The notes: generated from the letters alone by a model not told the origin. 64,000 nt of DNA from Spirochaetae bacterium HGW-Spirochaetae-2 (GCA_002839355.1 PGXW01000001.1:62001-126000), one strand, 5' to 3'; numbered from the stretch's first letter, positions 12,905 to 26,836 are shown. Made by a program: numbers and translations.

Positions 12905-13300
12905 ATGATAAAAAAATTCGATCTATCCACTCCTTCCGAAGGCTTCATATCCATAACTCGGGATATTGAGGCTTTCGTGGAGGACATGCGCATGGATTGT
13001 GGAATCTGCTTGGTCTATTCACCCCATACGACAGCGGGTATCACCATCAACGAAAACTCCGATCCCGATGTTATCCATGACCTGCTGCTGGGATTGGATA
13101 CCGCATTTCCGGAGGACAACCGCTATCTGCACGCCGAAGGCAATTCCACGGCACATCTGAAGGCTACCTCGATCGGTAGTAGTATCATGGTTCCTGTCGA
13201 ACATGGGAAGCTGGTCTTGGGTATTTGGCAGGATATCTATTTCTGTGAATTCGACGGTCCCCGCCAACGGAACTACTATTGCAAGCTTATGGCAGGTTGA
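12905..13300 (+). CDS. YjbQ/UPF0047 family protein (secondary thiamine-phosphate synthase type)
   Basis: 131 residues from the ATG at 12905. Family hallmarks are HTTAGITINEN (about 43-53), HLKATSIGSS, and WQDIYFCEFDGPRQR near the carboxy terminus. Members fold as small trimers with a His-rich pocket. E. coli YjbQ has weak thiamine-phosphate synthase activity in vitro, and the physiological role is unsettled. No ribosome site precedes the ATG, and the predicted transcription start coincides with it. A one-base gap separates it from the next gene. Confidence 0.85.
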   Translation: MIKKFDLSTPSEGFISITRDIEAFVEDMRMDCGICLVYSPHTTAGITINENSDPDVIHDLLLGLDTAFPEDNRYLHAEGNSTAHLKATSIGSSIMVPVEHGKLVLGIWQDIYFCEFDGPRQRNYYCKLMAG

Positions 13301-13301
13301 T

Positions 13302-13649
13302 ATGAAGATAACCCGGATTTGGGCTGACACCTCGGGAGAATCGCACTACTCGGATATGGAGATTCCGGTCATGGACAGCGGTCCGCTGGGATCGATGTCC
13401 GAACCGTTGCCTGTACGATCGATGATATTACGGGAAAATCCCTCGGGGTACGACTACGGATGGCATACGGCGCCGCGTGAACAATATATCGTAATGCTGG
13501 AAGGAAAAGTGGAGATTACGGTAAGCGATGGTGAAATGAGGACGTTTGGTCCAGGCGAAATAGTCCTGGTAGCGGATACCTCAGGAAAGGGGCATGCTTC
13601 ACGCAGTCCCGATGGCAAACCGAGAAAATCCTTGTTCTTGCCGGTATAG
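13302..13649 (+). CDS. cupin-fold protein
   Basis: 115 residues beginning one base after the yjbQ stop, hence co-translated. The single cupin domain is seen in the blocks WHTAPREQYIVMLEGKVEITVSDGE and FGPGEIVLVADTSGKGHAS. The His and Glu residues of the first block and the final His resemble metal ligands. Small cupins of this kind bind or isomerise small molecules; the substrate cannot be read from the sequence. Confidence 0.75.
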   Translation: MKITRIWADTSGESHYSDMEIPVMDSGPLGSMSEPLPVRSMILRENPSGYDYGWHTAPREQYIVMLEGKVEITVSDGEMRTFGPGEIVLVADTSGKGHASRSPDGKPRKSLFLPV

Positions 13650-13708: not shown

Positions 13709-14962
13709 TTAACCCTCGTCCTTGGTAATATCCTTCGGACGTAGAATCAGATTCAACACAACACCGAAAATCGCTGCGAGGCCAAGTCCGGAAAGATTGA
13801 TGTTTCCAAACTGGAATGTCGCCCCGCCCAATCCCAAGACCAACATCGAAGCACTGATGATAAGTAGTTTCGGATTCGAAAGGTTCACCTTCGCATCGAC
13901 CATGTTCTTGATACCGATCGAGCTGATCATACCGAACAGGAGGATGGAAATCCCACCAATGACCGGTCCTGGAATGGTTCCGATCAAAGCGGTGAATTTG
14001 GGGATCAACGAAAGTACGATCGCAAATACAGCTGCGATACGCATGATCAGTGGGTTGTAAGCACCGGTGAGCGCCACGGCCCCGGTATTCTCCGAATAGG
14101 TGGTGTTGGCAGGTCCACCGATCAAGGCGGAGAAGCTTGTCGCCAATCCATCTCCAATCAACGTCCGGTGAATACCCGGATCCTTGATGAAGTCTTTTCC
14201 GACAACATTCCCTATCGCCAGGACATCACCGAAGTGTTCCACCATGGTGACGATTGCTATCGGTACCATGATCGTGATCGCTCCTACGGAGAATTTCGGC
14301 AAGGTGAACTTCGGTATTCCGATCCAAGCAGCGTTGCCCACTGCAGTGAAATCGATGATACCGATTATGATGGATAGGACATATCCGGCGACCAATGCAA
14401 GCAGAACCGGTAGGTTCGATGCGAATTTCCATCCGAATTTCGGAAATCCGATTTTCACGAAAATACCGACAGCAAACGTAAACAGCGCGACGAGCCAACA
14501 TCCGTTGGTGCCGATTGCCTGTGCGATGCCCGGGGAGTTGGTCCCATTGGCATTCTGTATGGCAACCGGAGCGAGTATCAACCCGATCATGATGATCATT
14601 GGACCGGTGACATGCGGGGGAAGGATCTTATGCAAGTTCTCATATTTCACGAACTTGAATATGATCGCCACGATGATATAGAGAAATCCCGCCACTACGA
14701 TACCGCCGAGCGCATAGGGCAAGCCTTCGCTCGCTCCAACCGCAACCAAGCCAGGTATGAAGGCAAAGGAACTTCCCAAGAACACGGGGACCTTGAATTT
14801 GGTGATCACATGGAACAGCAAGGTTCCGACACCTGCCGCAAACAATGTAACACCAATGTCCAGCCCAGTTAGGATTGGGACCAATACGGTAGCACCGAAC
14901 ATGACGAACGTATGCTGCAGTCCCAATACGACGGTTTTTCCGTCCAAGTCTTTCCTTGTCAC
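13709..14962 (-). CDS. NCS2 family nucleobase permease, uracil-type signature
   Basis: 417 residues from the GTG at 14962, chosen because GAGGAGG precedes it by five bases and the conserved start (GLQHTFVMFGATVLVP) follows. About 12-14 membrane segments are expected for this nucleobase:cation symporter family. The substrate-site acids are visible: Glu in TMVEHFGD (equivalent to UraA Glu241) and Glu in GPANTTYSENTGAVALTG (equivalent to UraA Glu290). Xanthine-specific members usually carry Gln at the second position, so uracil or a related ring is more likely than xanthine. It is the last gene of the catabolic cluster, 118 bases after the molybdenum subunit gene. Confidence 0.85.
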   Translation of the reverse strand: MTRKDLDGKTVVLGLQHTFVMFGATVLVPILTGLDIGVTLFAAGVGTLLFHVITKFKVPVFLGSSFAFIPGLVAVGASEGLPYALGGIVVAGFLYIIVAIIFKFVKYENLHKILPPHVTGPMIIMIGLILAPVAIQNANGTNSPGIAQAIGTNGCWLVALFTFAVGIFVKIGFPKFGWKFASNLPVLLALVAGYVLSIIIGIIDFTAVGNAAWIGIPKFTLPKFSVGAITIMVPIAIVTMVEHFGDVLAIGNVVGKDFIKDPGIHRTLIGDGLATSFSALIGGPANTTYSENTGAVALTGAYNPLIMRIAAVFAIVLSLIPKFTALIGTIPGPVIGGISILLFGMISSIGIKNMVDAKVNLSNPKLLIISASMLVLGLGGATFQFGNINLSGLGLAAIFGVVLNLILRPKDITKDEG

Positions 14963-15080
14963 ACTAACCTCCTCTTTTCGTTTCCACGAATAGTCGGGGT
15001 CCGGGTCGCCTTCTCTCTTGATGGTTCCCGATACCCAAATGGTAATCCAACTCTTTCGATTGTCTTCTCCTTTCCTCCTT

Positions 15081-17537
15081 TTATGGTGAGATAGCCGAAT
15101 CGGGCGTATGGATGCGTGCTGCGGGATCCGAACGACACGAACCTGCGGGGGTCTTGGTAATCCAATTGTCGATCGGATGATTATCGTGCATCGCCCTCCA
15201 TACATCCTCGAAACGAATAGGCATATGGGCCAGATCGGCATCCACTGCCGATTGTATCGCATTTCCAAGAGCCGGGGCTACTGAAATCATCGGATGCTCA
15301 GCCACACCGCGTGCTCCATAGGGACCGTCGATCTGGGAATTCTCGACTACAATCGTCTCTATTTCCATCGGCAGATCCCTTGCGGTCGGAATCTTGTTGT
15401 CGGTGAACGAGGGATTGAGCAGATGTCCGGCATCGTCGTAAATATATCCTTCGCACGTTGCTGTTCCCAGTCCCTGAATCATGCCTCCGACGATTTGTCC
15501 ACGAAGCAACGCAGGATTGACGACTTTTCCGACATCGAATGCCGAGGCGACTTTCCGTACCACATATTCTCCCGTGACCGGATCCACTTCACAAATGATT
15601 CCGTGGGCACCGAAAGTCCAATCCAAAGCCGGTTTTCCCTGTCCGGTCTGTTTGTCCAAATTGGAAAGCCCTTGGGCAATATAACTGCCGACTCCTATCA
15701 ACGGGCCACCGATTCCCTTGCCATCGGGATATGCATATCCGATGGCGATGCTTTTCCAAGGGATGCAGTTCTCGGTGTCATGCCTGACATAGACATTCTC
15801 ACCGTCATGGGCCAAATCTTCCACACACGCTTTCAGAACGTGGGAAGCAACCGCATATCCTTTTCGAAGCAAGTCCTCGCAAGCAAGGATACAGGCGTTG
15901 CCGGACATGATGAGCCCTTTCGACGCTACGGTCTGCCAATCGTACGGGTCGCTCTCGGTGTCCTTATCCACCATGACATGAACGTTTGCGATGTCAAACC
16001 CGAGTCGCTCGGCCACAATTTGTGCCAAAGCTGTGGTAGACCCCTGCCCTATCTCGGTCAAACCGATATTCACGGTGACCGAACCATCGCTATTCATCTT
16101 GATGACAGCAGCGGTAGCGGTATTCGAAGGCATGGCCGGTGCCTTTTGCAGCAATGCGATACCTTTTCCAATCTTCCGGCCACTCGCCAGTTCCCGTTTC
16201 TTTTCAGCCGCAGTCAACTTCCCATACCCGATGGAGCGGGCCACTGCTTCCATGCAAGCAACGACATCACCCGTATGGCTGGTGATCTTTTCTCCGGTGA
16301 GTGTAATGGAGCCAGGGTGCAATGCGTTCCTTCTTCTGAATTCGAGTGGATCCATCCCGATGGTTCTCGCAACCAGTTCCATATGCCGTTCGATACCCCA
16401 GTGGAACTCGACATGACCGAATCCCCTGTATGCGGTGCCGTACGGCTTGTTCGTGTACACGGTATAGGCATCTACCCATGCATTCGGAATCTCGTATGGG
16501 CCCGAGGCACTGTATCCCGAGGCACGGGTCACGTTGACCGCATAATCGGCATACGCTCCCGCATCCCAGAACATTTCCATTTTTTGGGCGATGATCTTAC
16601 CATCTTGCGCTACTCCGGTCTTGATGCGATACGTCAAGGCACTCCTGCAGGGGAGCAAGCTGAATTCCTCTTCACGACTCGCCTGCAATTTCACCGGCAA
16701 CCCACCAGCCTGCTTGGAGAGACAAGCGACCAACGGCTCCAAATGGATCCCGGCTTTTCCACCAAATCCTCCACCTACAGCGGGAACGACAACCCTGACA
16801 TTCCCCAATGGGAGGGCAAAGGTGTGGCAGAACAAATTTCGGACGGTAAATGGGGATTGTGCGCTGGACCAGATGGTGACCTTGTCCCTCGCACCCCATC
16901 GGACGATGGCGACGTGCGTTTCCATCGGCACATGCTGGACACTAGGATTGTCGTATTCACGTTCCACCACATAAGCCGCTTCGTTGAAGCCCGCCTCGAC
17001 ATCACCCTTTCTCAATTTCGTCCAATTGGCGATATTCGTCTTGGGAACGGGAGTGAATGCGGCTTCGATGAATTCATAGGAACCCAAATCGGGATGGACA
17101 AGCACCGCATCGGCCTTCAAGGCATCCATATGGTTCAAAACCGGTTGCATCACTTCATATTCGACATTGATGAGATCGACAGCCTTGCGTGCTATTTCCA
17201 GGGAGGTGGCGGCCACGGCAGCGACCGCTTCCCCGTAATGGCGGACCTCACCTTTTGCCAGGATGTTCTTGTCTACGATATACAAGCCGATACGATAATC
17301 GAGATCGTCGCCTGTAAGCACTGCCCTGACCCCTGCCAATGCCTTCGCTTTCGATGTATCGACCTTGACTATCCTTGCCCGTGCATGGGGACTCTTCTTG
17401 ACTTGGGCATACAACATTCCCGGCAGTACCATATCGCTCACATAGGTAGCCGTACCGGTCAACTTCTCGCCCGTATCCTTTCGCAACACACTCTTTCCGA
17501 CATAGGCGAGTGTACTTGGATCATTGTTCTCATACAT
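15081..17537 (-). CDS. xanthine dehydrogenase-family molybdopterin-binding subunit
   Basis: 818 residues from the ATG at 17537, with AAGGAGG 9 bases upstream. Hydroxylates an N-heterocycle or aldehyde at the Mo-cytosine/pterin centre and passes electrons to the iron-sulfur and FAD subunits encoded upstream. Visible motifs are the amino-terminal DxxxKLTGTATYVSD block, VGGGFGGK, AYRGFGHVEFHW, and GARGVAEHP, whose Glu matches the catalytic Glu of the family (usually GVGEP). The exact substrate cannot be told. It overlaps the [2Fe-2S] gene by 8 bases. The carboxy-terminal 30 residues extend beyond the conserved core. No stop-disrupting changes are seen. Confidence 0.9.
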   Translation of the reverse strand: MYENNDPSTLAYVGKSVLRKDTGEKLTGTATYVSDMVLPGMLYAQVKKSPHARARIVKVDTSKAKALAGVRAVLTGDDLDYRIGLYIVDKNILAKGEVRHYGEAVAAVAATSLEIARKAVDLINVEYEVMQPVLNHMDALKADAVLVHPDLGSYEFIEAAFTPVPKTNIANWTKLRKGDVEAGFNEAAYVVEREYDNPSVQHVPMETHVAIVRWGARDKVTIWSSAQSPFTVRNLFCHTFALPLGNVRVVVPAVGGGFGGKAGIHLEPLVACLSKQAGGLPVKLQASREEEFSLLPCRSALTYRIKTGVAQDGKIIAQKMEMFWDAGAYADYAVNVTRASGYSASGPYEIPNAWVDAYTVYTNKPYGTAYRGFGHVEFHWGIERHMELVARTIGMDPLEFRRRNALHPGSITLTGEKITSHTGDVVACMEAVARSIGYGKLTAAEKKRELASGRKIGKGIALLQKAPAMPSNTATAAVIKMNSDGSVTVNIGLTEIGQGSTTALAQIVAERLGFDIANVHVMVDKDTESDPYDWQTVASKGLIMSGNACILACEDLLRKGYAVASHVLKACVEDLAHDGENVYVRHDTENCIPWKSIAIGYAYPDGKGIGGPLIGVGSYIAQGLSNLDKQTGQGKPALDWTFGAHGIICEVDPVTGEYVVRKVASAFDVGKVVNPALLRGQIVGGMIQGLGTATCEGYIYDDAGHLLNPSFTDNKIPTARDLPMEIETIVVENSQIDGPYGARGVAEHPMISVAPALGNAIQSAVDADLAHMPIRFEDVWRAMHDNHPIDNWITKTPAGSCRSDPAARIHTPDSAISP

Positions 17538-18015
17538 GGAGCAATTCCTCCTTCGCTGTGTACCCACCTGTCACATCCAGGACAGCTTCGATAATCTGCT
17601 CATATCCGGTACATCTGCAGAAGTTCCCCTCCAACCCTTCCTGTATCTGGTCGACGGTGGGATGCGGCGTGTGGTGGATCAACTCGCGGGCACTCATGAT
17701 CATGCCGGCTGTACAAAAACCGCATTGGACCGCATGGTGACGGTCGAAGGCCTCCTGCAATGTGCTCAACATGCCTCCGGATGATTCGCCTTCGATCGTC
17801 TCGATCGTCCCCTCATTCGCCTCGACCGCCAATACCATGCAAGAATTGACCGTCTTGCCATTGAAGAAAACGGTACACGCTCCACATTCTCCGGCACCAC
17901 AACCTTCCTTGGTTCCGGTGAGTCCCAAGTCTTCCCGCAAAAATCGCAACAAGGTCCTGTTTTCCGCGACATCCCGCTCATAGGCAATGCCATTAACCGT
18001 TACATTGATCCTCAT
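17530..18015 (-). CDS. xanthine dehydrogenase-family [2Fe-2S] subunit
   Basis: 161 residues from the ATG at 18015. The first cluster uses the plant-type ferredoxin motif CGAGECGACTV plus a downstream Cys (NSCMVL). The second uses CGFCTAGM and CRCTGY. Both clusters are therefore complete. It carries electrons from the molybdenum subunit to the FAD subunit. Its ATG overlaps the stop of the FAD-subunit gene (ATGA, 18012-18015) and its end overlaps the molybdenum-subunit start, giving translational coupling of all three subunits. Confidence 0.93.
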   Translation of the reverse strand: MRINVTVNGIAYERDVAENRTLLRFLREDLGLTGTKEGCGAGECGACTVFFNGKTVNSCMVLAVEANEGTIETIEGESSGGMLSTLQEAFDRHHAVQCGFCTAGMIMSARELIHHTPHPTVDQIQEGLEGNFCRCTGYEQIIEAVLDVTGGYTAKEELLHV

Positions 18016-18830
18016 GCCCGCACCTCCACTAGAAGTCTCCTGGTGAACTCGGATACCATGAAACGCCGGTATTCCTTGGTACACCGGACATCGCTGATAG
18101 GACTGATCAAGGCATCCACAACAGCAATGGCATCGGAAACGGAAATATCCAAGGGCAAATTGCCGGTAGCAACCGGAGTCGGTGCAGCTGAACTGACACC
18201 GATTCGCATACCGTCGCCGACTTGGGCCACGGCAACGCCGATGATTCCCAGATCATGCCCTTGTATCCTTTTCAATTTCCGATACTTCCCCTTCGCTCCC
18301 TTGCTCTGGATCGGTATGGTAATGCCTATAACCATTTCGTCAGGATTCAGGACCGTACGCTTGACACCGGTGAAGAACTGACGTACCGGAACGGTCCGAT
18401 ACGCCTTGGAAGAGGCAATCTCTATGCTCGCATCGAGACACAACAACGCTGGGGCCATGTCGGAACAGGGTGATGCATTGACGATGTTTCCCACGACCGT
18501 CGCCCGGTTCCGTACTTGATAGGAGGCCAAGTCATGTGCACAGGTCTGCAACAACTGATAGGAAGAGGCAATATCGGTATTCTTCAAAATATCATTGATG
18601 GTGACCGCCCAACCGATTCTCAAGCCTTTGGTGTTGTCTGACATGATCGCATGTGCCTCTGGAATCCTCTTGACGTCAACCACAGTATTCGGTTTTACCA
18701 ATCCATTGCGAATATTCACCAACAAGTCGGTGCCGCCAGCCAGTAGTTTGGCACCTGGTCCGGCTGTCTCCAGAAGCGCCAACAAGTCGGTAAGTTCGGT
18801 AGGTGCCGTATACGAGAATCGATGAATCAT
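18012..18830 (-). CDS. xanthine dehydrogenase-family FAD-binding subunit
   Basis: 272 residues. The FAD-binding PCMH motif LAGGTDLLVNIRNG (about 35-48) and the second flavin loop VGNIVNASPCSDMAPALL are present, followed by the CO-dehydrogenase-flavoprotein-type carboxy-terminal domain. Accepts electrons from the [2Fe-2S] subunit and passes them to NAD+ or another acceptor. It starts 12 bases after the DUF2877 gene, behind a GGGGG ribosome site. Confidence 0.92.
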   Translation of the reverse strand: MIHRFSYTAPTELTDLLALLETAGPGAKLLAGGTDLLVNIRNGLVKPNTVVDVKRIPEAHAIMSDNTKGLRIGWAVTINDILKNTDIASSYQLLQTCAHDLASYQVRNRATVVGNIVNASPCSDMAPALLCLDASIEIASSKAYRTVPVRQFFTGVKRTVLNPDEMVIGITIPIQSKGAKGKYRKLKRIQGHDLGIIGVAVAQVGDGMRIGVSSAAPTPVATGNLPLDISVSDAIAVVDALISPISDVRCTKEYRRFMVSEFTRRLLVEVRA

Positions 18831-18842
18831 GATACCCCCTTT

Positions 18843-19781
18843 TTACGCGACATCCATGCGATGGTGGGAAAACCCATAGACCATCCCGAATGCCGCATCT
18901 AAACCTGAACTGTGTCCGATCTCCGATACTGCTGCCAGTGCCCCGAGGTAATCCGTATCGTCAGATCCGGTCGATGCCCATGCGCGGGCCAGTAAGAGAA
19001 GACTGTCCGAGAACAATCCTTCACAAGCGAGGAGCAGGAACATGCGCGAGATAGCAGTTGTGATCCGATTGTCGTCGACCAGCATCGTTTTGATTTCTGC
19101 AACGAGATACTTGTGGAAATGGTTCTGCGCTGATTCCTTGCCTATATGCATGTGCCAGGAGAGGATCAGTCCACAGAGAAAATCGTCTCCGGCTGGTGTG
19201 GAACCGGGACCGAAACCCACCAACGATCGTATCGTTTCGATCGAATCGGGGACAGTTTGTCGTTTGATGCTTGTTGAAAGGTTAGCCAATGTTTGGTGGA
19301 ACCGTTGAAAGAAGGATTGCCCGACGGGTGCGATTCCGACTTGTTGGAAAATTTGTATGACAGTCTCGTGTTTTTTTTGCATGGAATCCAACAATTCCAT
19401 TCGTCTTCGAATGACTGTCGTAGGTACCATGGAGGCTCCGGGAGCTCTCTCTTGCGTGGGGTGGACCCGAGTCGCTCCCAGGAAGGAGACCCATAATCCG
19501 CAATTGAAGAAAAGCCCTTCCTCACGGACCGTTGCGGTAGAACCCGGATACACGCGAGCCGACACTGTTGTATCGAAGCGAATGCCGTTGTCTATCAGCA
19601 CCGCAGCCGGATGGCAAGCCAGCTTTTTCGTGACAATCGAATAGAGCGTTCCATTGGTATCCTGTAGATTGATGGTTGTTGCATATACCGAATGGACAAT
19701 CAACATATCCGGTGAAAGCGGGAAGCGGGACCCGATTCTTTCAGCTGTTCCCAAGCAGGTACTAGACCATCCGGTGTGCAT
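18843..19781 (-). CDS. DUF2877 protein, AllH-like subunit of oxamate/related carbamoyltransferase
   Basis: 312 residues. The signature GFGPGSTPAGDDFLCGLI (about 192-209) is the DUF2877 hallmark. The E. coli member YlbF (AllH) works with FdrA (AllF) and YlbE (AllG) as an oxamate carbamoyltransferase, which releases carbamoyl phosphate from oxalurate in allantoin breakdown. The AllF-AllG homologue is the first gene of this same operon, so a complex is likely; the substrate here may differ. AAGGAGG lies 9 bases before the ATG, within the end of the gntR gene, which it overlaps by 20 bases. Confidence 0.82.
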   Translation of the reverse strand: MHTGWSSTCLGTAERIGSRFPLSPDMLIVHSVYATTINLQDTNGTLYSIVTKKLACHPAAVLIDNGIRFDTTVSARVYPGSTATVREEGLFFNCGLWVSFLGATRVHPTQERAPGASMVPTTVIRRRMELLDSMQKKHETVIQIFQQVGIAPVGQSFFQRFHQTLANLSTSIKRQTVPDSIETIRSLVGFGPGSTPAGDDFLCGLILSWHMHIGKESAQNHFHKYLVAEIKTMLVDDNRITTAISRMFLLLACEGLFSDSLLLLARAWASTGSDDTDYLGALAAVSEIGHSSGLDAAFGMVYGFSHHRMDVA

Positions 19782-20430
19782 GGAACAATGCCTCCTTGAT
19801 GGCCGAATCTACTTTTTCCTTTCCCCACATGATATTGCGGGTAAGGACTTCCGAAGCTTTCTCACAATCCCGCTGCCGCAGGGCAAAGAGCAGTTCGAGG
19901 TGGTCAGCGCAGGTGATTCGCAAACGTTCCTGGTCCGTTATATCCGATAGGCGAACAAAGTGGATCCGCTGGTCTATCTCATGGAGAAGTTGCTTGATCA
20001 CTTTATTCCCCCCCGCATCGGCCAAGGCTTCATGGAACTGTTCGTCGGCTTGTGCGGATTGCGCTGCGATAACGGGCAGTGTCTCGAGAATGGATTCCCA
20101 TTGTATCCGCAACGATTCCAGTACGGTATCATCAATACCGTTTAGGCAGATATTCCTGATTACAGCCAACTCCAATACCAAGCGGGTATCGTACAGCTCG
20201 TTGATTTCCTGGATATCGATCTTGCGGACCGAATATCCCTTGTGTTGCTCTTTGGATATGAGTTTTTCCGAGGCGAGGCTATTGAGCGCCTCGCGCACCG
20301 GAGATCTGCTCACGCCGAATTCCAAGCAGATCTCCTCTTCCGTCAACCGGTGGCCAGGGGGATACGACCAGGTGATGATTCTGGTGGTCAGGGTATTGTA
20401 GATGTCAGAACTACGAGTCTTGGCACTCAT
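19762..20430 (-). CDS. GntR family transcriptional regulator, FCD subfamily
   Basis: 222 residues. The winged helix-turn-helix is at about 10-75 (YPPGHRLTEEEICLEFGVSR then SPVREALNSLASEKL). The helical FCD effector domain follows, with metal/ligand-type residues in ELYDTRLVLE and the HEALADAGGN stretch. FCD regulators usually repress catabolic operons and release DNA when bound to a small acid. Being inside the operon, it probably autoregulates. The perfect TTGTATACAA palindrome in the promoter at 26882-26909 is the obvious candidate operator. Confidence 0.9.
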   Translation of the reverse strand: MSAKTRSSDIYNTLTTRIITWSYPPGHRLTEEEICLEFGVSRSPVREALNSLASEKLISKEQHKGYSVRKIDIQEINELYDTRLVLELAVIRNICLNGIDDTVLESLRIQWESILETLPVIAAQSAQADEQFHEALADAGGNKVIKQLLHEIDQRIHFVRLSDITDQERLRITCADHLELLFALRQRDCEKASEVLTRNIMWGKEKVDSAIKEALFHAHRMV

Positions 20431-20453: not shown

Positions 20454-20840
20454 TCAGTCCTGCTTGAACACGAACACATGCACCGGCTTTCCGGGTCGTT
20501 CGTCCGATTCCTCGACAGTCGCCACCAGACGCATACCTGTTGCAGGCTTTTCCACTTCCAATCTGCCGGAGGCACGCAATCCGTTCTCGAATTGGACAAT
20601 GCCAAAAAGCAAGAACTTCCTGTTGTATCCTTCAGGCAGATTCCACAAACGGGTCCAAGCCAACAATTCGCACGGCCCTTCGAGATCGAATGTCTCCCAA
20701 TGCTTGTCGGTCACCGGATCCCTTCGGGAGTGGCATTCTTTGCAGATCATAGGCGCCGGATAATATACAGTACCACATTTTTCGCATTTGTAGGCTTTGA
20801 TTTTAGGTTCTTTGAAATCGTACATACTGAAATCAATCAT
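20454..20840 (-). CDS. DUF35 zinc-ribbon/OB-fold protein, partner of the adjacent thiolase-like protein
   Basis: 128 residues. The amino-terminal zinc ribbon has CEKCG and CKECH separated by ten residues (about 19-38). An OB-fold with the usual FGIVQFENGLRASGRLE core follows. DUF35 proteins bind thiolase-superfamily enzymes, either as scaffolds channelling acyl-CoA (archaeal acetoacetyl-CoA thiolase/HMG-CoA synthase) or as half of an aldolase (ChsH2 with Ltp2). It lies 11 bases downstream of the thiolase-like gene, which supports such a complex. Confidence 0.87.
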   Translation of the reverse strand: MIDFSMYDFKEPKIKAYKCEKCGTVYYPAPMICKECHSRRDPVTDKHWETFDLEGPCELLAWTRLWNLPEGYNRKFLLFGIVQFENGLRASGRLEVEKPATGMRLVATVEESDERPGKPVHVFVFKQD

Positions 20841-20851
20841 ACCGGTACCCC

Positions 20852-22048
20852 CTAATCCTTTGCGAAGATCATCGCGACGACATTGTTGCCGAATCCCCCG
20901 AAATTAACCGCCATACCATACTTCGGATCGGTCACCTGTCTGCCTAGTTCGGCCTCGCCCCGCAATTGGCGAACCAGTTCCACCGCCTGCGAAGTTCCTG
21001 TAGCACCGACAGGATGACCCTTCGACTTCAATCCGCCCGAGGTATTGATCGGCAACCTGCCGTCTATCGCGGTCTCACCCTTTCGTACAGCCAGAAAACT
21101 TTTGCCCCGTTCGAAAAATCCCACTTCCTCGCTGATAGCCAGTTCCAAGATCGAGAAGGCATCGTGGAGCTCCGCGAACGAAATGTCTTTCGGTGACAGG
21201 CCAGCCATGGCATAGGCCTTCTCGGCGGCGATACGCACGGCTTCGAGCTTCAAGGGGTCCTTCCTGTTGTGTACACAATGGGTATCGGTGGCGCTGGCGA
21301 TACCGGCGATCCTCACCGGTTTCTTGGAGAACAGCTTCGCCTTGGGGGAATCCATGTTGACCAACAGCAGCGCGGCCGCCCCATCGCTGACCGGGCACGT
21401 CGAATACATGCGCAACGGTTCGGCCACATAGGTGTTCACCACATTGGCCTCAGGACCGTCGGCGATTGCCTCGATTGTGCATTCGGCCTGTATGTGGGCA
21501 TATTTGTTCTTTGCTCCGTTGGCATGGTTCTTCACTGCCAGCAACGCCAGATCCCTCTCGGTAAGCCCGTACTTCTCCATGTACATGCGAGTGAACATGC
21601 CCCCGAAACCAGGGAGTGTCAGGCCCATGTCGTATTCGGCTTCCGGATGCAACATGGTTGCGACATACTCTGTTCCGGTCCAGCCTGTCACCTTACGCAT
21701 GACTTCCCCACCGATTACAAGAACAATATCGGCCATGCCGGAAGCGACCGCCATGTACCCAATCTTAATGGCACTGGCCCCGGAGGCGGGTCCGTTCTCG
21801 ACCAGTTCAGCCGGAACCGGTTCCATATCCATCTTGCTGATCACCGACGAGGCGACCGCGCTCTGATGGCAAAACAATCCCGAGGCCATGTTTCCGACTA
21901 TGACCTGGTCGATTTCTTTTCTCCTTTCGAGAAATCCGGCATCTTTCAGGGCATCCGTGGCGGCGTATGCCATGACATCCCCAAGATCATATTGTGAAAG
22001 GTTACCGAATTTCGTATGACCTATTCCGACAACACCTACTCTAGACAT
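20852..22048 (-). CDS. thiolase-superfamily protein without the nucleophilic Cys
   Basis: 398 residues with the SCP2-thiolase layout: amino-terminal RVGVVGIGHTKFG, AELHDAFSILE with its His, the GHPVGATG motif, and the closing NFGGFGNN. Where thiolases have the acyl-accepting Cys (usually CASG), this protein has Pro87 (NGPASGASA), so ordinary thiolysis through an acyl-Cys is unlikely. With its DUF35 neighbour it resembles the Ltp2-ChsH2 type of CoA-linked retro-aldolase; condensation or pure structural roles are alternatives. It begins three bases after the GNAT-like gene, with AGAGG upstream. Confidence 0.83.
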   Translation of the reverse strand: MSRVGVVGIGHTKFGNLSQYDLGDVMAYAATDALKDAGFLERRKEIDQVIVGNMASGLFCHQSAVASSVISKMDMEPVPAELVENGPASGASAIKIGYMAVASGMADIVLVIGGEVMRKVTGWTGTEYVATMLHPEAEYDMGLTLPGFGGMFTRMYMEKYGLTERDLALLAVKNHANGAKNKYAHIQAECTIEAIADGPEANVVNTYVAEPLRMYSTCPVSDGAAALLLVNMDSPKAKLFSKKPVRIAGIASATDTHCVHNRKDPLKLEAVRIAAEKAYAMAGLSPKDISFAELHDAFSILELAISEEVGFFERGKSFLAVRKGETAIDGRLPINTSGGLKSKGHPVGATGTSQAVELVRQLRGEAELGRQVTDPKYGMAVNFGGFGNNVVAMIFAKD

Positions 22049-22051
22049 GGC

Positions 22052-22738
22052 TTACCTCTTGAATCCCGGAATCTGCGGATACTCTCGTGGCATGACCAGT
22101 TTTGCCGATGCCTTGAGGTCTGTATCCGAAACCGGTCTGGTACCCGTACACTTCACATCCCTGACAGCCTCCCACAACGATCGGGTGAGGACGTACGTGG
22201 GGACTCCCCCCAACTCGTGTCGGACTTCCGGGAATTGTGAAGAGCGGTCCTCGAGTTCGTATTCGATCATCCATCGCTTGAATCCGTTCGGACTCTCGGC
22301 GACGATATACACTTCCTCCTCACCGAGGATATCGAGGTGATGCTCCATCTTGGCCGCAAACAGTTGGGCTCCGACCCGAAGTCCCCGTTTGATTGTCAAT
22401 GTATGCAGGCTCATACCCAACTTCGGTGTGACATGCCTACTGGTCACGATACCGGCGATCTCGCCGTCTATCGCACCGACGAGTACGAATTCATTCGCCA
22501 CGCGACGGCGGTACCAACCGAGGATTTCCCCATACATGCGAACCGCGACTATGTCGTAGAAGTCCGCGGGAACCCCGATCAGAGGATAGATCGTTCCGAG
22601 CAATGCTCCGACTTCCTCGCGTTTCGCTTCGCGTACTACCATCTTCTCACCAGATGCCAATGTGATTACTTTCGGTGGATACGGCTTCAGTGGAATCTCA
22701 GGTGGTCTGAGTTTTTGTTCCATTGCATCTATAGCCAT
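22052..22738 (-). CDS. GNAT-like (acyl-CoA N-acyltransferase fold) protein
   Basis: 228 residues from the ATG at 22738, with AAAGGAG 6 bases upstream. The central part reads like a GNAT fold: an amino-terminal strand MVVREAKREEV, a strand-turn FVLVGAIDGEIAGIVTSR, and a helix start after GLRVGAQLFAAKMEHHL in place of the usual R/QxxGxG/A acetyl-CoA loop. The match is structural in flavour and not strong. No known catabolic gene family can be named. It is tightly placed between the cyclase-family gene and the thiolase-like gene. Confidence 0.55.
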   Translation of the reverse strand: MAIDAMEQKLRPPEIPLKPYPPKVITLASGEKMVVREAKREEVGALLGTIYPLIGVPADFYDIVAVRMYGEILGWYRRRVANEFVLVGAIDGEIAGIVTSRHVTPKLGMSLHTLTIKRGLRVGAQLFAAKMEHHLDILGEEEVYIVAESPNGFKRWMIEYELEDRSSQFPEVRHELGGVPTYVLTRSLWEAVRDVKCTGTRPVSDTDLKASAKLVMPREYPQIPGFKR

Positions 22739-22815: not shown

Positions 22816-23685
22816 CTATTTGCGTGCTTCCTCATGAAGCCAGGCATTCCGCGCACCAGCGACATCACCGAATTTGGTCAATTCGGCTTTTGCCTTCTTT
22901 GCCATGAGCTGTTCGTACCTGTCGTCCTCGACATGTGCCACAATCCGGGCAATCGAGGATTCCCCATCGACAAACCGCCAGGGATAGCAACCTATCACGG
23001 CACGTTGGTTCAACAGCAGGTCGATATCGCCTCCCACACATTCGGCATGGATGATTCCATGGTCGAACATCTCTATGTGCATGAGCTGGTACTTGTCGTC
23101 GCTGAAAAACTCTTCCAACGATTTGCCGTACTTCTTGTGGAAGTGCGCATCGCATTCCTTCGCCTGGCGAGGCATCCATTCACGGATCTTCGTATTCATC
23201 GGATGGTCCGCGCTGCCGCAATCCACCCCGATCCATCTGAGCTTCTTCCGTTTCGCCCATTCCGCGAACTCCCTGTCCGGTCCCGGATGTTGGATCATGT
23301 ACTTCACTTCATTGCCTGTAGGCTGGTCCCATCCGTAATGGTGGAACCCGGTATGGATCAACAGGATATCTCCTTCCCGTACCTCGACCCGATCCTCGAC
23401 CATCTTGGATGTATACACATCGTAGTCTGCGCAGACGTCGGACAAATCCACTATGGCTCCGTCATGGACAAGGAAATCCATATCCAGTTGGGCAATGTCT
23501 TTCCCGGGTGTGTAGAAATGGATTTCTCCATCCAAGTGCGTACCGACATGGTTCGAATGTGTCACCACTTGTCCATTCGCTCCATTCGGAGCAAGACGTT
23601 TGAAATATTGCACCTGCAATGGAATGTATGTGGGCCATGGTGGAGTGCCGATTCCCAATGGGATTGTCAAATCGATTACCTTCAT
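22816..23685 (-). CDS. cyclase-family (PF04199-type) metal-dependent hydrolase
   Basis: 289 residues from the ATG at 23685, which has GAGGAGG upstream; the longer frame to 23778 lacks family sequence. The metal-binding motif of the family (HxGTHxDxxxH) is present as HVGTHLDGEIHF (about 46-57), and the start VIDLTIPLGIGTPPWP is typical. Relatives include kynurenine formamidase, isatin hydrolase and other Mn/Zn-dependent enzymes that open cyclic or formyl amides. The gene order suggests it opens the ring produced by the molybdenum hydroxylase. It lies 58 bases after the fused FdrA-YlbE gene. Confidence 0.83.
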   Translation of the reverse strand: MKVIDLTIPLGIGTPPWPTYIPLQVQYFKRLAPNGANGQVVTHSNHVGTHLDGEIHFYTPGKDIAQLDMDFLVHDGAIVDLSDVCADYDVYTSKMVEDRVEVREGDILLIHTGFHHYGWDQPTGNEVKYMIQHPGPDREFAEWAKRKKLRWIGVDCGSADHPMNTKIREWMPRQAKECDAHFHKKYGKSLEEFFSDDKYQLMHIEMFDHGIIHAECVGGDIDLLLNQRAVIGCYPWRFVDGESSIARIVAHVEDDRYEQLMAKKAKAELTKFGDVAGARNAWLHEEARK

Positions 23686-23743: not shown

Positions 23744-26700
23744 TTAAACAAACTCCTTGGCGCAGGCCAAGACCGCATCGCGGAAACAATTCTCAGGTGG
23801 CTTCACCAATCCGGCTCCCACCATACCTACCCCGGGATCCTTATGGGCGATTCCGGTATTGATCACCGGCAACACCCCCGATTCGACAACCAACCGGACA
23901 TCGATCCCGGTCGGGGTACCGCGGAAATCCAATGCCGGAATCCGGTATTCGTTGTGTTCGGCCAGGGTGATTCCATACATGCGTTTCGTGAATGTGATCG
24001 CATCGGCCGGAGACCCTCCCACGAATTTGACGATCGCAGGAGCCGCGGCCATGGCGAATCCACCGATTCCCGAGGTCTCGGTGATGACCGAATCCCCGAT
24101 ATCCGGAGCACTGTCCTCGGCACAGAAGCCGGGAAGATACAATCCGTCGACCATTCCCGCCGGTCCGGTGAACCAACGGTCGGGCAATCCGGAGATCCTG
24201 ATACCGAAATCGGTACCGTTGCGGGCCATGGTCGTGATCATGGTGCTCCCCGGTACTCCCGTGGCAGGATCCAGTACACATTTCGCCGAGGGCATCGACA
24301 GGTTCAAGAAGAAATGGTCGTTCGCATGCATGAAGGAGAGCACGCGGGAAATGGCTTGTGGTTCTTCTCCCAGCATCACCAGATGCGGTGCCAATTCCCG
24401 TATCATGAGCGAGGTCCCGGCCCTGTTGCGATTGTGTCCTTCGTCCCCCATCTGCAACGCTTGCACGATGATTCCCCGCATATCGATCGGACCATGACGC
24501 CCGATGGCCTTGTGCAGTATCGGTGCGAGCTCGTTTGCCATCCAATGCAGTCGGTCCAGCACTTCCTCGGAATAGGCCCCATACCTCAGGACTTTCCCCA
24601 ATCCCTCGTTCAAGGTGGCGAACGCATGGTTGCCGTACGTTTCATTCTGAATGATCCATACCGGCATGCTCGCGGTCATGATCCCGGCCATAGGTCCGAC
24701 CGAGGCATGGTGGTGGCAAGGTTCGAAGTCAATGGTTCCCGAGGCCGCAAGTTCTTCAGCGTCCTGCGGATTGTCCGCCCTGCCTTCATACATGAGTGCT
24801 CCGATAACCGCACCACGCATCGGACCGCACATGCGTTCCCAGGTAACCGGAGGGCCGGCATGGAGCACAAGGTTGTCGTGCATGCCGGGAACCACATCCC
24901 GGGCGATCCCGATTCCCTTGAGTATCGGCTTTCCCTTCAACAAACGCCCAACAGCTTCGGTATTCGCAGCGTCAATATCGAACTTGGTGGATTCGGAAAG
25001 GGCATCCAATGCTTCGATCACTTCGATATCTCCTCCGGCAGGTGGTCGCCATTCGAGATGGACAGACCGAGCACCGCAGGCTTCCAGGTTCCGGGAGAAG
25101 GATTCCAGCCCGAGATTCAAGGCTATGGGACCGTTCGTAAAAAGAGATACGACCTGCGAGGTATCGGGAACCGATACCTTTGTGTCTTTCGGCATGACGT
25201 TGTGTATCGGCTTGTGCGCGACAGGTTTCACCGACTGGTTTTCCGGCATGGTCCACCTATGCTTCTTGACCAGCAGCCGAAGTGCCAGCATGGTCGCCTG
25301 GTGGTTCGACGGCATGACGACAACACCGGCATCCTCGAGGATTTTCCGTTGCCGGTCGTAGCTTTGCGGATCTTGTGCGGTACCGGTAACCGAGGCGATA
25401 ACCGAAAGGTACCCTCCCCGTTTCCGAGCAGCCTCCTTGGCCTTGACCAACGAAGGCACCATCGCTCCAGCGGGATTGTCGTGCGATCCGTAACCGAGTA
25501 CACAATCGACCAGCATGACCGCAATGGTTTCATCCGCAATCTCGGCTTCGATGCGTTCGGTGCGTGTGCTCGGATCTATCATAGGGTGTGGACGACCTAC
25601 CGTGAACACGTCGTCTCCCAAGTCGACTATGGTGTGTGCCACAGATGTGTGTGGATCCTTGGGGACAAAGGTCGGATCGGTATGATTGTTCGACCAGAGG
25701 CCTCCTGTCGGACCATGCAGCGCCAACCAGGCCTCATCGGCCAACGTCCCGCCGGTATAGTAGCCGCGGATATACAGTTGTCCACTTTGCATCCCTTCCA
25801 GTTCCCGGGAAACCAGTGCATCGACTGTTTCATGGTCCACATCGAACGGCCACCTGTCGTGATACTCCCGTGGCGGGACCGGACTACCGGCCAATGTGGC
25901 GGCGATCCTGGCCGTCTCCTCCAAGTCATGTGCCCATTGGATATTCGGCCCCAAGGAAAAATCGCCTTCATGTGCGCCGATAAAATGAACTACCGCGGGC
26001 TTGCCGGTGTTTCGCAGGGTTTCCAATACATCGTCCACCACTTCCTTGGCTGGAGGTTTGGAAACGATCGCGATCACCGAGGTTCCTTCGTCGGCACCCA
26101 TCGCGGCAATTCCCATCCGCATGGTCAATCCACCGACCGCAGGATTTTTCAAATCACGTCCTCCGGTACCGATCGCATGGCTTACCCCGGCACCAAAGCG
26201 GTCGAGCAGACACGCGACCTCTTGCAATCCCGTTCCCGAGGCGGCTACGATGCCAACGCCACCCGTTTGGACAACATTGGCGAAACAAAGCGGTTTGCCT
26301 GCGATCATAGCCGTTCCACAATCGGGCCCCATCATGAGCAGCCCCTTGTCCCATGCGAGTCTTTTCAACGCGATCTCATCTTCCAGGGAAACGTTGTCCG
26401 AGAACAACATGACATGGAGATTGTGCCGCAAGGCTTTCTTCGCCTCGGATGCGGCGTAGATTCCGGGCAAGGAGATGATTGCGATATTGCTTTCCCCATT
26501 GGCCTTGCACGCGTTGCCGATAGTCTTGGGCTGTATGGCGGTCTCACCCGAAGATTCCGGATGATGCTTGTTCTCGAGCAGGGTGAACGCGAAGGATTCG
26601 ATTTCATCCAGATCCTTTTCATTCGGGCAGTCGATGGCGACGAGAAGATCGGTAGGTCCGGCAACAGATATTTCGTTTTTCGGGAACCCCTGGTCGATAA

Positions 26701-26836
26701 GGAGCTGGACATTCATGGGAGTGCCCATGGCGACGGTCGCTGTCTCGACCTCGGCTCTGGCCTGTAAATCCTTGCTCATGAGCATGAGGAACACAGAGTC
26801 GACATACACATCCTTCCGTACCACCACCCTTTTCAT
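23744..26836 (-). CDS. fused FdrA-YlbE (AllF-AllG) carbamoyltransferase protein
   Basis: 1030 residues in one uninterrupted frame. Residues 1-600 match FdrA: MGTPMN near residue 40, FSDNVSLEDEI, KGLLMMGPDCGTAMIAG, GIVAASGTGLQEV, and DLGDDVFTVGRPHPMIDP, which is a succinyl-CoA-synthetase-like layout. Residues from about 610 match YlbE (DUF1116): VLHAGPPVTWERMCGPMRGA, PCHHHASVGPMAGI, NEGLGKVLRYGAY, VINTGIAHKDPGVGMVGAG. In E. coli these are separate genes, and with the DUF2877 protein AllH they make carbamoyl phosphate from oxalurate. The fusion fixes a 1:1 ratio. GGAGG precedes the ATG by 9 bases. It is the first gene of the cluster, downstream of a strong promoter. Confidence 0.92.
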   Translation of the reverse strand: MKRVVVRKDVYVDSVFLMLMSKDLQARAEVETATVAMGTPMNVQLLIDQGFPKNEISVAGPTDLLVAIDCPNEKDLDEIESFAFTLLENKHHPESSGETAIQPKTIGNACKANGESNIAIISLPGIYAASEAKKALRHNLHVMLFSDNVSLEDEIALKRLAWDKGLLMMGPDCGTAMIAGKPLCFANVVQTGGVGIVAASGTGLQEVACLLDRFGAGVSHAIGTGGRDLKNPAVGGLTMRMGIAAMGADEGTSVIAIVSKPPAKEVVDDVLETLRNTGKPAVVHFIGAHEGDFSLGPNIQWAHDLEETARIAATLAGSPVPPREYHDRWPFDVDHETVDALVSRELEGMQSGQLYIRGYYTGGTLADEAWLALHGPTGGLWSNNHTDPTFVPKDPHTSVAHTIVDLGDDVFTVGRPHPMIDPSTRTERIEAEIADETIAVMLVDCVLGYGSHDNPAGAMVPSLVKAKEAARKRGGYLSVIASVTGTAQDPQSYDRQRKILEDAGVVVMPSNHQATMLALRLLVKKHRWTMPENQSVKPVAHKPIHNVMPKDTKVSVPDTSQVVSLFTNGPIALNLGLESFSRNLEACGARSVHLEWRPPAGGDIEVIEALDALSESTKFDIDAANTEAVGRLLKGKPILKGIGIARDVVPGMHDNLVLHAGPPVTWERMCGPMRGAVIGALMYEGRADNPQDAEELAASGTIDFEPCHHHASVGPMAGIMTASMPVWIIQNETYGNHAFATLNEGLGKVLRYGAYSEEVLDRLHWMANELAPILHKAIGRHGPIDMRGIIVQALQMGDEGHNRNRAGTSLMIRELAPHLVMLGEEPQAISRVLSFMHANDHFFLNLSMPSAKCVLDPATGVPGSTMITTMARNGTDFGIRISGLPDRWFTGPAGMVDGLYLPGFCAEDSAPDIGDSVITETSGIGGFAMAAAPAIVKFVGGSPADAITFTKRMYGITLAEHNEYRIPALDFRGTPTGIDVRLVVESGVLPVINTGIAHKDPGVGMVGAGLVKPPENCFRDAVLACAKEFV

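Follow-up and report, generated by a model that had tools for sequence, protein, structure and literature searches.

A thiolase-fold protein with proline at the nucleophile position, proposed as a malonyl-CoA decarboxylase in a putative anaerobic uracil pathway

The Pro-thiolase of Spirochaetae bacterium HGW-Spirochaetae-2, a 398-amino acid thiolase-fold protein with proline in place of the nucleophilic cysteine, is proposed to act as a malonyl-CoA decarboxylase within a module that would take malonamate to acetyl-CoA in an anaerobic uracil pathway, a reading to which we assign a probability of roughly 0.6. Its gene lies at 20852..22048 on the minus strand of the window, the whole 64,000-nucleotide stretch that was analysed (GCA_002839355.1 PGXW01000001.1:62001-126000). 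The evidence consists of sequence, conservation, synteny and the replacement of modules in related genomes, from which we infer all of the reactions.

The translation of the Pro-thiolase open reading frame (22048..20852) contains VENGPASGASAIK and matches both Thiolase_N (PF00108) and Thiolase_C_1 (PF22691) above cut-off; family models label proteins like it acetyl-CoA acetyltransferase or "thiolase domain-containing". The initial annotation had placed a proline codon at the position of the acyl-accepting cysteine, and this holds: codon 87 (21788..21790, minus strand) is CCC, and in HMMER alignments Pro87 falls exactly on the nucleophile of the Cys thiolases 7yvy (IEAACASG) and 6esq (VEAACASG). 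ST0096 (4yzo) aligns with serine at this position, so loss of the cysteine is known elsewhere too among DUF35-type thiolases. Also as first described, the histidine of HDAF (residues 295-298) and the GHPVGATG loop (residues 344-351) are kept. Ala297 was considered as a clade-specific loss of the SCP2 acid/base cysteine, an idea dropped because the thiolase 7yvy likewise has HDAF.

A profile built from ten orthologues recovered 80 loci from genome contigs, spanning Spirochaetes, Clostridia, Verrucomicrobia, Chloroflexi and others. Proline is found at the aligned site in all 80 (54–99% identity), as well as in every site-spanning orthologue of the window's class, which rules out a sequencing error or pseudogene. 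Since the residue is common to all of the orthologous loci, Pro87 is a fixed character of an ancient clade. This clade is also discrete; the Cys-bearing homologue in the window's class (L023/L038) is 36% identical to the Pro-thiolase, and the nearest solved Cys thiolases are approximately 37–40% identical over the model. N85-G86-P87-A88-S89-G90, His295 (HDAF) and His345 (GHP loop) are invariant in an alignment of 17 sequences (54–78% identity to the window protein). The initial annotation had suggested an alignment to look for another cysteine at the nucleophile position, and none is present among these 17. The sole invariant cysteine, Cys218, lies on a different loop (CPVSDGA), ruling out a catalytic cysteine that has shifted nearby; it is a possible proton donor. 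The equivalent residue is serine in 7yvy and 6esq and threonine in 4yzo. The AF2 model of the Pro-thiolase is closest to 6esq/7yvy, with a Z score of 54.9 and 2.1 Å over 382 residues against 6esq (archaeal acetoacetyl-CoA thiolase), compared with Z scores of 45.1 for Ltp2 and 45.2 for Sal.

Downstream of the Pro-thiolase, after a gap of 11 bp, begins a 128-amino acid DUF35 zinc-ribbon/OB-fold protein (20454..20840, minus strand) that matches zf-ChsH2 (PF12172) at 34.9 bits (cut-off 23.2). Its nearest PDB chain is the DUF35 protein of 6esq, and Cys19, Cys22, Cys33 and Cys36 are invariant. This neighbour had been correctly recognized in the initial annotation, which mentioned neither the minus-strand orientation of the two genes nor the third gene that belongs to the unit. 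Directly upstream of the Pro-thiolase is a 228-amino acid protein (22738..22052, minus strand) without a match in Pfam, NCBIfam or PDB profiles, whose GNAT fold is predicted from its AF2 model (pLDDT 90.5, pTM 0.88) and its place in the trio by synteny. The model aligns with 8gxj (Z 14.1, 3.1 Å over 168 residues) and with CoA-bound 1yre (Z 14.0), and the protein has a CoA-pyrophosphate loop, RGLRVG, in which R121 and G123 are invariant. With few exceptions among the 80 loci, GNAT, Pro-thiolase and DUF35 genes are adjacent and collinear; no GNAT was detected in L117 and L099, and the further exceptions are loci on truncated contigs. Judged by this gene order, the unit is a trio rather than a pair. 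The 6esq complex (archaeal acetoacetyl-CoA thiolase/DUF35/HMG-CoA synthase) similarly joins a DUF35 partner and a third CoA enzyme to the thiolase, but its nucleophile is cysteine where the trio has proline, and its third partner is HMG-CoA synthase instead of GNAT.

The trio sits within a single minus-strand cluster running from 26836 to 13709. It opens with a fused AllF(FdrA)-AllG of 1030 amino acids (23744..26836), carbamoyltransferase subunits matching PRK06091 (FdrA, 557 bits, cut-off 433) and PF06545 (AllG, 330.6 bits), followed by a PF04199 "cyclase" metal-dependent hydrolase (22816..23685; 106.8 bits) whose nearest PDB entry is kynurenine formamidase. After GNAT, Pro-thiolase and DUF35 come a GntR/FCD regulator identified by profile match (19762..20430) and the carbamoyltransferase subunit AllH (18843..19781; PF11392, 83.2 bits). 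All three AllFGH subunit profiles are thus above cut-off in the window. AllF and AllG are separate genes in clostridia and one fused protein here. Next are the subunits of an XDH-type molybdenum hydroxylase: an FAD subunit (18012..18830), assigned from position and sequence, with homologues that in most loci adjoin the genes for the FeS and Mo subunits; a 2Fe-2S subunit (17530..18084), assigned from its Cys motifs and as a conserved neighbour; and a molybdopterin subunit (15081..17567) with MoCoBD_1/2 above cut-off and relatives among XDH and 4-HBCR. The cluster closes with an NCS2 permease (13709..15082), for which the best equivalog is the uracil permease PRK10720 (362.9 bits, below cut-off), versus 224.6 bits for xanthine permease. 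Near the permease, a small cupin-like protein is encoded against the operon (13203-13649, plus strand), with homologues in 8 related loci.

Elsewhere, the usual company of the trio is an AllF/G/H homologue, a PF04199 hydrolase, an XDH-type Mo hydroxylase, a uracil permease and often a carbamate kinase, the last being present in 15 trio loci. Clostridium magnum (L091) and C. ragsdalei (L097) have the same set with the addition of a PucR-type regulator, a carbamate kinase (above cut-off) and a 3-hydroxyacyl-CoA dehydrogenase. The genome of the window encodes a carbamate kinase elsewhere (above cut-off), as the proposed pathway requires. Among 297 genomes of the window's class, 20 have the Pro-thiolase, 61 have AllG and 19 have both; AllG therefore accompanies 19/20 genomes with the Pro-thiolase versus 42/277 without it (Fisher p 1e-13, relatedness ignored). 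AllG was found elsewhere in 9 of 12 genomes whose trio locus was without it, and in a single one of 14 control genomes, namely E. coli. Moorella stamsii has the Mo hydroxylase, PF04199 cyclase and trio, with AllG absent. Its loci (L098/L133) contain family I CoA-transferase subunits, a BKACE (DUF849) protein and a Cys-bearing thiolase instead of AllG; these were set aside as a clue, being confined to that species.

We propose that uracil would be imported by the permease, converted to barbiturate by the Mo hydroxylase and, following ring opening by the PF04199 hydrolase, to ureidomalonate. The barbiturate and ureidomalonate steps are putative assignments made by analogy only. PF04199 includes a cyclic amidohydrolase, isatin hydrolase (PMC6117287), which is consistent with ring opening by the hydrolase of the window. 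E. coli AllFGH converts oxalurate, an acyl-urea, to oxamate and carbamoyl phosphate (PMC11326118). Ureidomalonate, the product of barbiturate ring opening, is likewise an acyl-urea, and by analogy the same phosphorolysis would give carbamoyl phosphate and malonamate. Carbamate kinase would then obtain ATP from the carbamoyl phosphate, and the trio would take malonamate to acetyl-CoA. The E. coli oxamate carbamoyltransferase thus shares AllF, AllG and AllH homologues, carbamate kinase and acyl-urea phosphorolysis with this scheme (PMC11326118), but acts on oxalurate, whereas the window version has AllF and AllG fused and ureidomalonate as its proposed substrate.

Several neighbouring genes point to uracil as the starting compound. 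The permease of C. magnum is a uracil permease above cut-off (642.7 versus 477 bits), as is that of the L214 cluster (651.4 bits). L139 (11478-16363), an AllFGH/PF04199 cluster from a genome that carries the trio elsewhere (L082), has a uridine phosphorylase above cut-off (292.9 versus 280.3 bits), a cytosine-deaminase homologue (421 versus a cut-off of 438) and an aldehyde:ferredoxin-oxidoreductase-type protein; homologues of all three genes are found in the trio-bearing L083. No XDH-type Mo hydroxylase was seen in the L139/L083 cluster, where a different enzyme may oxidise uracil. An ORF of L213 was at one point labelled a cytosine deaminase, but NCBIfam did not confirm the label, which was dropped. 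In three Moorella-related loci (L215, L216 and L217), AllFGH is beside a cyanuric acid amidohydrolase (above cut-off), mostly with carbamate kinase too, which suggests a cyanuric acid pathway yielding carbamoyl phosphate; cyanuric acid hydrolase likewise opens a trioxo ring. There is a small chance, if the largest among the alternatives considered, that a purine or some other N-heterocycle is what the cluster degrades, in which case the trio would act on something other than malonyl-CoA. The XDH-family Mo subunit, the cyanuric acid neighbours of AllFGH and the role of AllFGH in allantoin breakdown (PMC11326118) would fit such a cluster. A purine pathway was indeed our first choice, but the matches to uracil permease, uridine phosphorylase and malonamidase led us to abandon it.

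The malonamidase results come from relatives that do without the trio, and it is because of the genes replacing it there that malonamate to acetyl-CoA is its most likely conversion. Twenty genomes of the window's class have, immediately after FdrA, AllG and the cyclase, a CoA-transferase family III gene in place of the trio. An amidase-signature gene (PF01425) is also present in 14 of the 20, these being the contigs that reach far enough. The best PDB match of this amidase is malonamidase E2 (1ock), at 188 bits, with the next distinct enzyme at 143; malonamidase E2 hydrolyzes malonamate to malonate. The replacement CoA-transferase is nearest to CoA:oxalate CoA-transferase. Several clusters with the CoA-transferase in this slot are flanked by genes for an MmdA-type carboxyltransferase, biotin carrier and Na+-pump beta subunit, among them L165, L167, L173, L179 and L193, which have the MmdA-type decarboxylase and/or Na+-pump beta genes alongside. 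L176 and L183 instead carry the MmdA, biotin carrier and beta subunit genes within the operon itself, where they separate the Mo subunit from FdrA, and neither amidase nor CoA-transferase was seen in these two operons. The MmdA-like proteins score 751–776 bits, below the TIGR01117 cut-off of 998.8, and the beta subunit is above the TIGR01109 cut-off. Na+-pumping biotin-dependent decarboxylase genes occur within or next to the AllFG-cyclase operons of L176, L183, L148 and L165, from other genomes of the class, apparently an energy-conserving version of the proposed pathway.

CaiB, MmdA, biotin carrier and beta subunit were found in none of the 80 trio loci (flanks up to 10 kb), and neither the trio-type GNAT nor the distant GNAT described next occurs together with the CaiB slot in any of the 61 AllG genomes (25 versus 20 genomes; p 1e-6, relatedness ignored). 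Families f34 and f41 each contain both modules, so the replacement is not purely a lineage split. A distant GNAT (36–39% identity), sharing 26 invariant residues with that of the trio, adjoins MmdA in L150, L152, L153 and L155, and is encoded elsewhere in the genome in G246, G262 and G299, which are of the same type as the L176/L183 operons. Three modules can therefore be distinguished: GNAT, Pro-thiolase and DUF35, as in the window (A); amidase, CoA-transferase and Mmd (B); and GNAT and Mmd (C). In operons that are otherwise equal, Pro-thiolase/DUF35 occupies the slot of the malonyl-/methylmalonyl-CoA decarboxylase module. The simplest reading of this gene content is that GNAT would replace amidase plus CoA-transferase, and Pro-thiolase/DUF35 the decarboxylase. 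The reaction proposed for the trio decarboxylase is the same as that of the Na+-pumping (methyl)malonyl-CoA decarboxylase MmdABCD, which holds the same pathway position in relatives but uses unrelated biotin/membrane machinery and stores the energy as a Na+ gradient. A nitrilase-superfamily C-N hydrolase, possibly another malonamate amidase, adjoins the trio in Verrucomicrobia/Lentisphaerae-type MAGs (L052, L053, L054, L055 and L062), and a 46% homologue of it is encoded in the trio-less AllFGH cluster L214.

The favoured division of labour is that GNAT would convert malonamate and CoA to malonyl-CoA and NH3, and that the Pro-thiolase, held with DUF35, would decarboxylate the malonyl-CoA. In SCP2-type thiolases the acyl group is borne by the nucleophilic cysteine, whose backbone NH contributes to the second oxyanion hole; the histidines of HDxF and GHP hold the thioester carbonyl as the enolate forms. 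Pro87 would take away both the nucleophile and this backbone NH, and the retained His295/His345 pair would leave enolate chemistry on the CoA ester alone. Such enolate-stabilising machinery suits malonyl-CoA decarboxylation, for which no base is needed, better than acyl transfer. Decarboxylating KS-Q domains have glutamine in place of the cysteine. Another precedent is the trypanosome SLP (5AB6/5AB7), also a thiolase fold without the nucleophile: the Cys-less TbSLP binds malonyl-CoA (structure 5AB7) and slowly decarboxylates it (kcat 0.005 s-1), an activity not shared by the aldolase Sal (PMC12329534). SLP is eukaryotic, with a YDCF motif and no DUF35; the bacterial Pro-thiolase has HDAF and a DUF35 partner.

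The initial annotation had favoured an aldolase or lyase step on a CoA ester over thiolysis, with Ltp2-ChsH2 as precedent. The likely reaction is indeed a lyase step on a CoA ester, thiolysis being argued against by loss of the nucleophile throughout the clade, and the likeness of the DUF35 pairing to Ltp2-ChsH2 stands. Retro-aldol cleavage is not supported. The steroid aldolases Ltp2-ChsH2 (6ok1) and Sal-Shy (9myr) have the same fold without the nucleophilic cysteine and the same type of partner, and a 3-hydroxyacyl-CoA dehydrogenase-like gene is the last of the operon in four loci, all clostridial (L091 [18052-19005], L092, L093 and L097), and was found in these only. Cleavage of a 3-hydroxyacyl-CoA by Pro-thiolase/DUF35 is nevertheless improbable: DUF35-linked aldolases rely on a tyrosine base, in YDHF (Ltp2) or YDCY (Sal) (PMC12329534), which is an invariant histidine in the HDAF of the Pro-thiolase. 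The structures are also more distant (Z 45) than 6esq, no hydratase to supply a 3-hydroxyacyl-CoA accompanies the Pro-thiolase gene in the clusters, and the replacement modules are malonate enzymes.

The roles within the trio could also be reversed, GNAT being the decarboxylase and Pro-thiolase/DUF35 transferring the amide or acyl group in a CoA-dependent step. A GNAT-like fold, as predicted for the partner, is also that of malonyl-CoA decarboxylases. We consider this reversal no likelier than an aldolase, since a second decarboxylase would be superfluous next to the biotin-dependent decarboxylases that the distant GNAT adjoins, and since a thiolase fold lacking nucleophile and oxyanion-hole NH is poorly suited to acyl transfer. 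Less probable still is a Claisen-type enzyme, in which the acyl acceptor is another residue such as Cys218, or acetoacetyl-CoA arises by non-covalent condensation. The invariance of Cys218 at a site that is serine or threonine in the solved structures, and the same clostridial dehydrogenase, would be in keeping with it, but Cys218 is on a different loop from the nucleophile site and acetoacetyl-CoA would have no consistent partner in most loci. A non-catalytic scaffold or allosteric subunit for GNAT, although compatible with a lost nucleophile and with DUF35 complexes being known scaffolds, is very improbable because HDAF, GHPxGATG and NFGGFGNN are invariant across 54–99% identity, unlike a decayed active site.

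For malonyl-CoA decarboxylation by the Pro-thiolase, our preferred reading, the least secure step is amide-to-thioester conversion by GNAT, which by our own estimate is uphill, so that the decarboxylation would be needed to draw it forward. Substrate channelling has been proposed for the archaeal thiolase/HMG-CoA synthase complex, and channelling via a DUF35 complex would help the GNAT step. That the trio converts malonamate directly, without ATP, to acetyl-CoA, CO2 and NH3, with GNAT passing malonyl-CoA to the thiolase-fold decarboxylase, is accordingly a more tentative proposal, which we hold to be somewhat short of an even chance. Some observations count against the main reading. Besides the trio, L081 and L084 encode a malonamidase-like amidase, so that GNAT would seem redundant there; malonamidase E2 is the second-best match of the L084 amidase, and in L084 the trio also has a homologue of MdcA, the malonate decarboxylase alpha subunit, as a neighbour (755 bits, cut-off 789). 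These genes strengthen the link to malonate and weaken the amide role of GNAT. In G333 the Pro-thiolase occurs together with the GNAT-MmdA module, M. stamsii lacks AllG, the window's own genome encodes an MmdA homologue (53%) elsewhere, and the dehydrogenase of the four clostridial operons fits no proposed step.

The Rhodococcus-type oxidative uracil pathway, consisting of uracil dehydrogenase, barbiturase and ureidomalonase, ends in malonate and urea. Its route from uracil via barbiturate to ureidomalonate is also the one proposed for the window operon, which by contrast has a PF04199 hydrolase instead of barbiturase and would yield carbamoyl phosphate (ATP) and acetyl-CoA. The Pro-thiolase adds to the known Cys-less, DUF35-linked thiolase-fold enzymes, and no paper linking these genes, nor any description of the pathway, was found in the open-access literature searched.

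If the proposal is correct, the acetyl-CoA acetyltransferase and "thiolase domain-containing" labels would be wrong for the whole clade, and a natural thiolase fold would have become a decarboxylase through a Cys to Pro change, a physiological counterpart both of the KS-Q domains that decarboxylate and of the activity of trypanosome SLP on malonyl-CoA. GNAT would be operating from amide to thioester. Cultivable clostridia and Sphaerochaeta would possess a complete pathway for anaerobic, oxidative pyrimidine breakdown with two energy-conserving products, carbamoyl phosphate and acetyl-CoA, and the trio would complete an unrecognised fermentative uracil pathway spread over several phyla.
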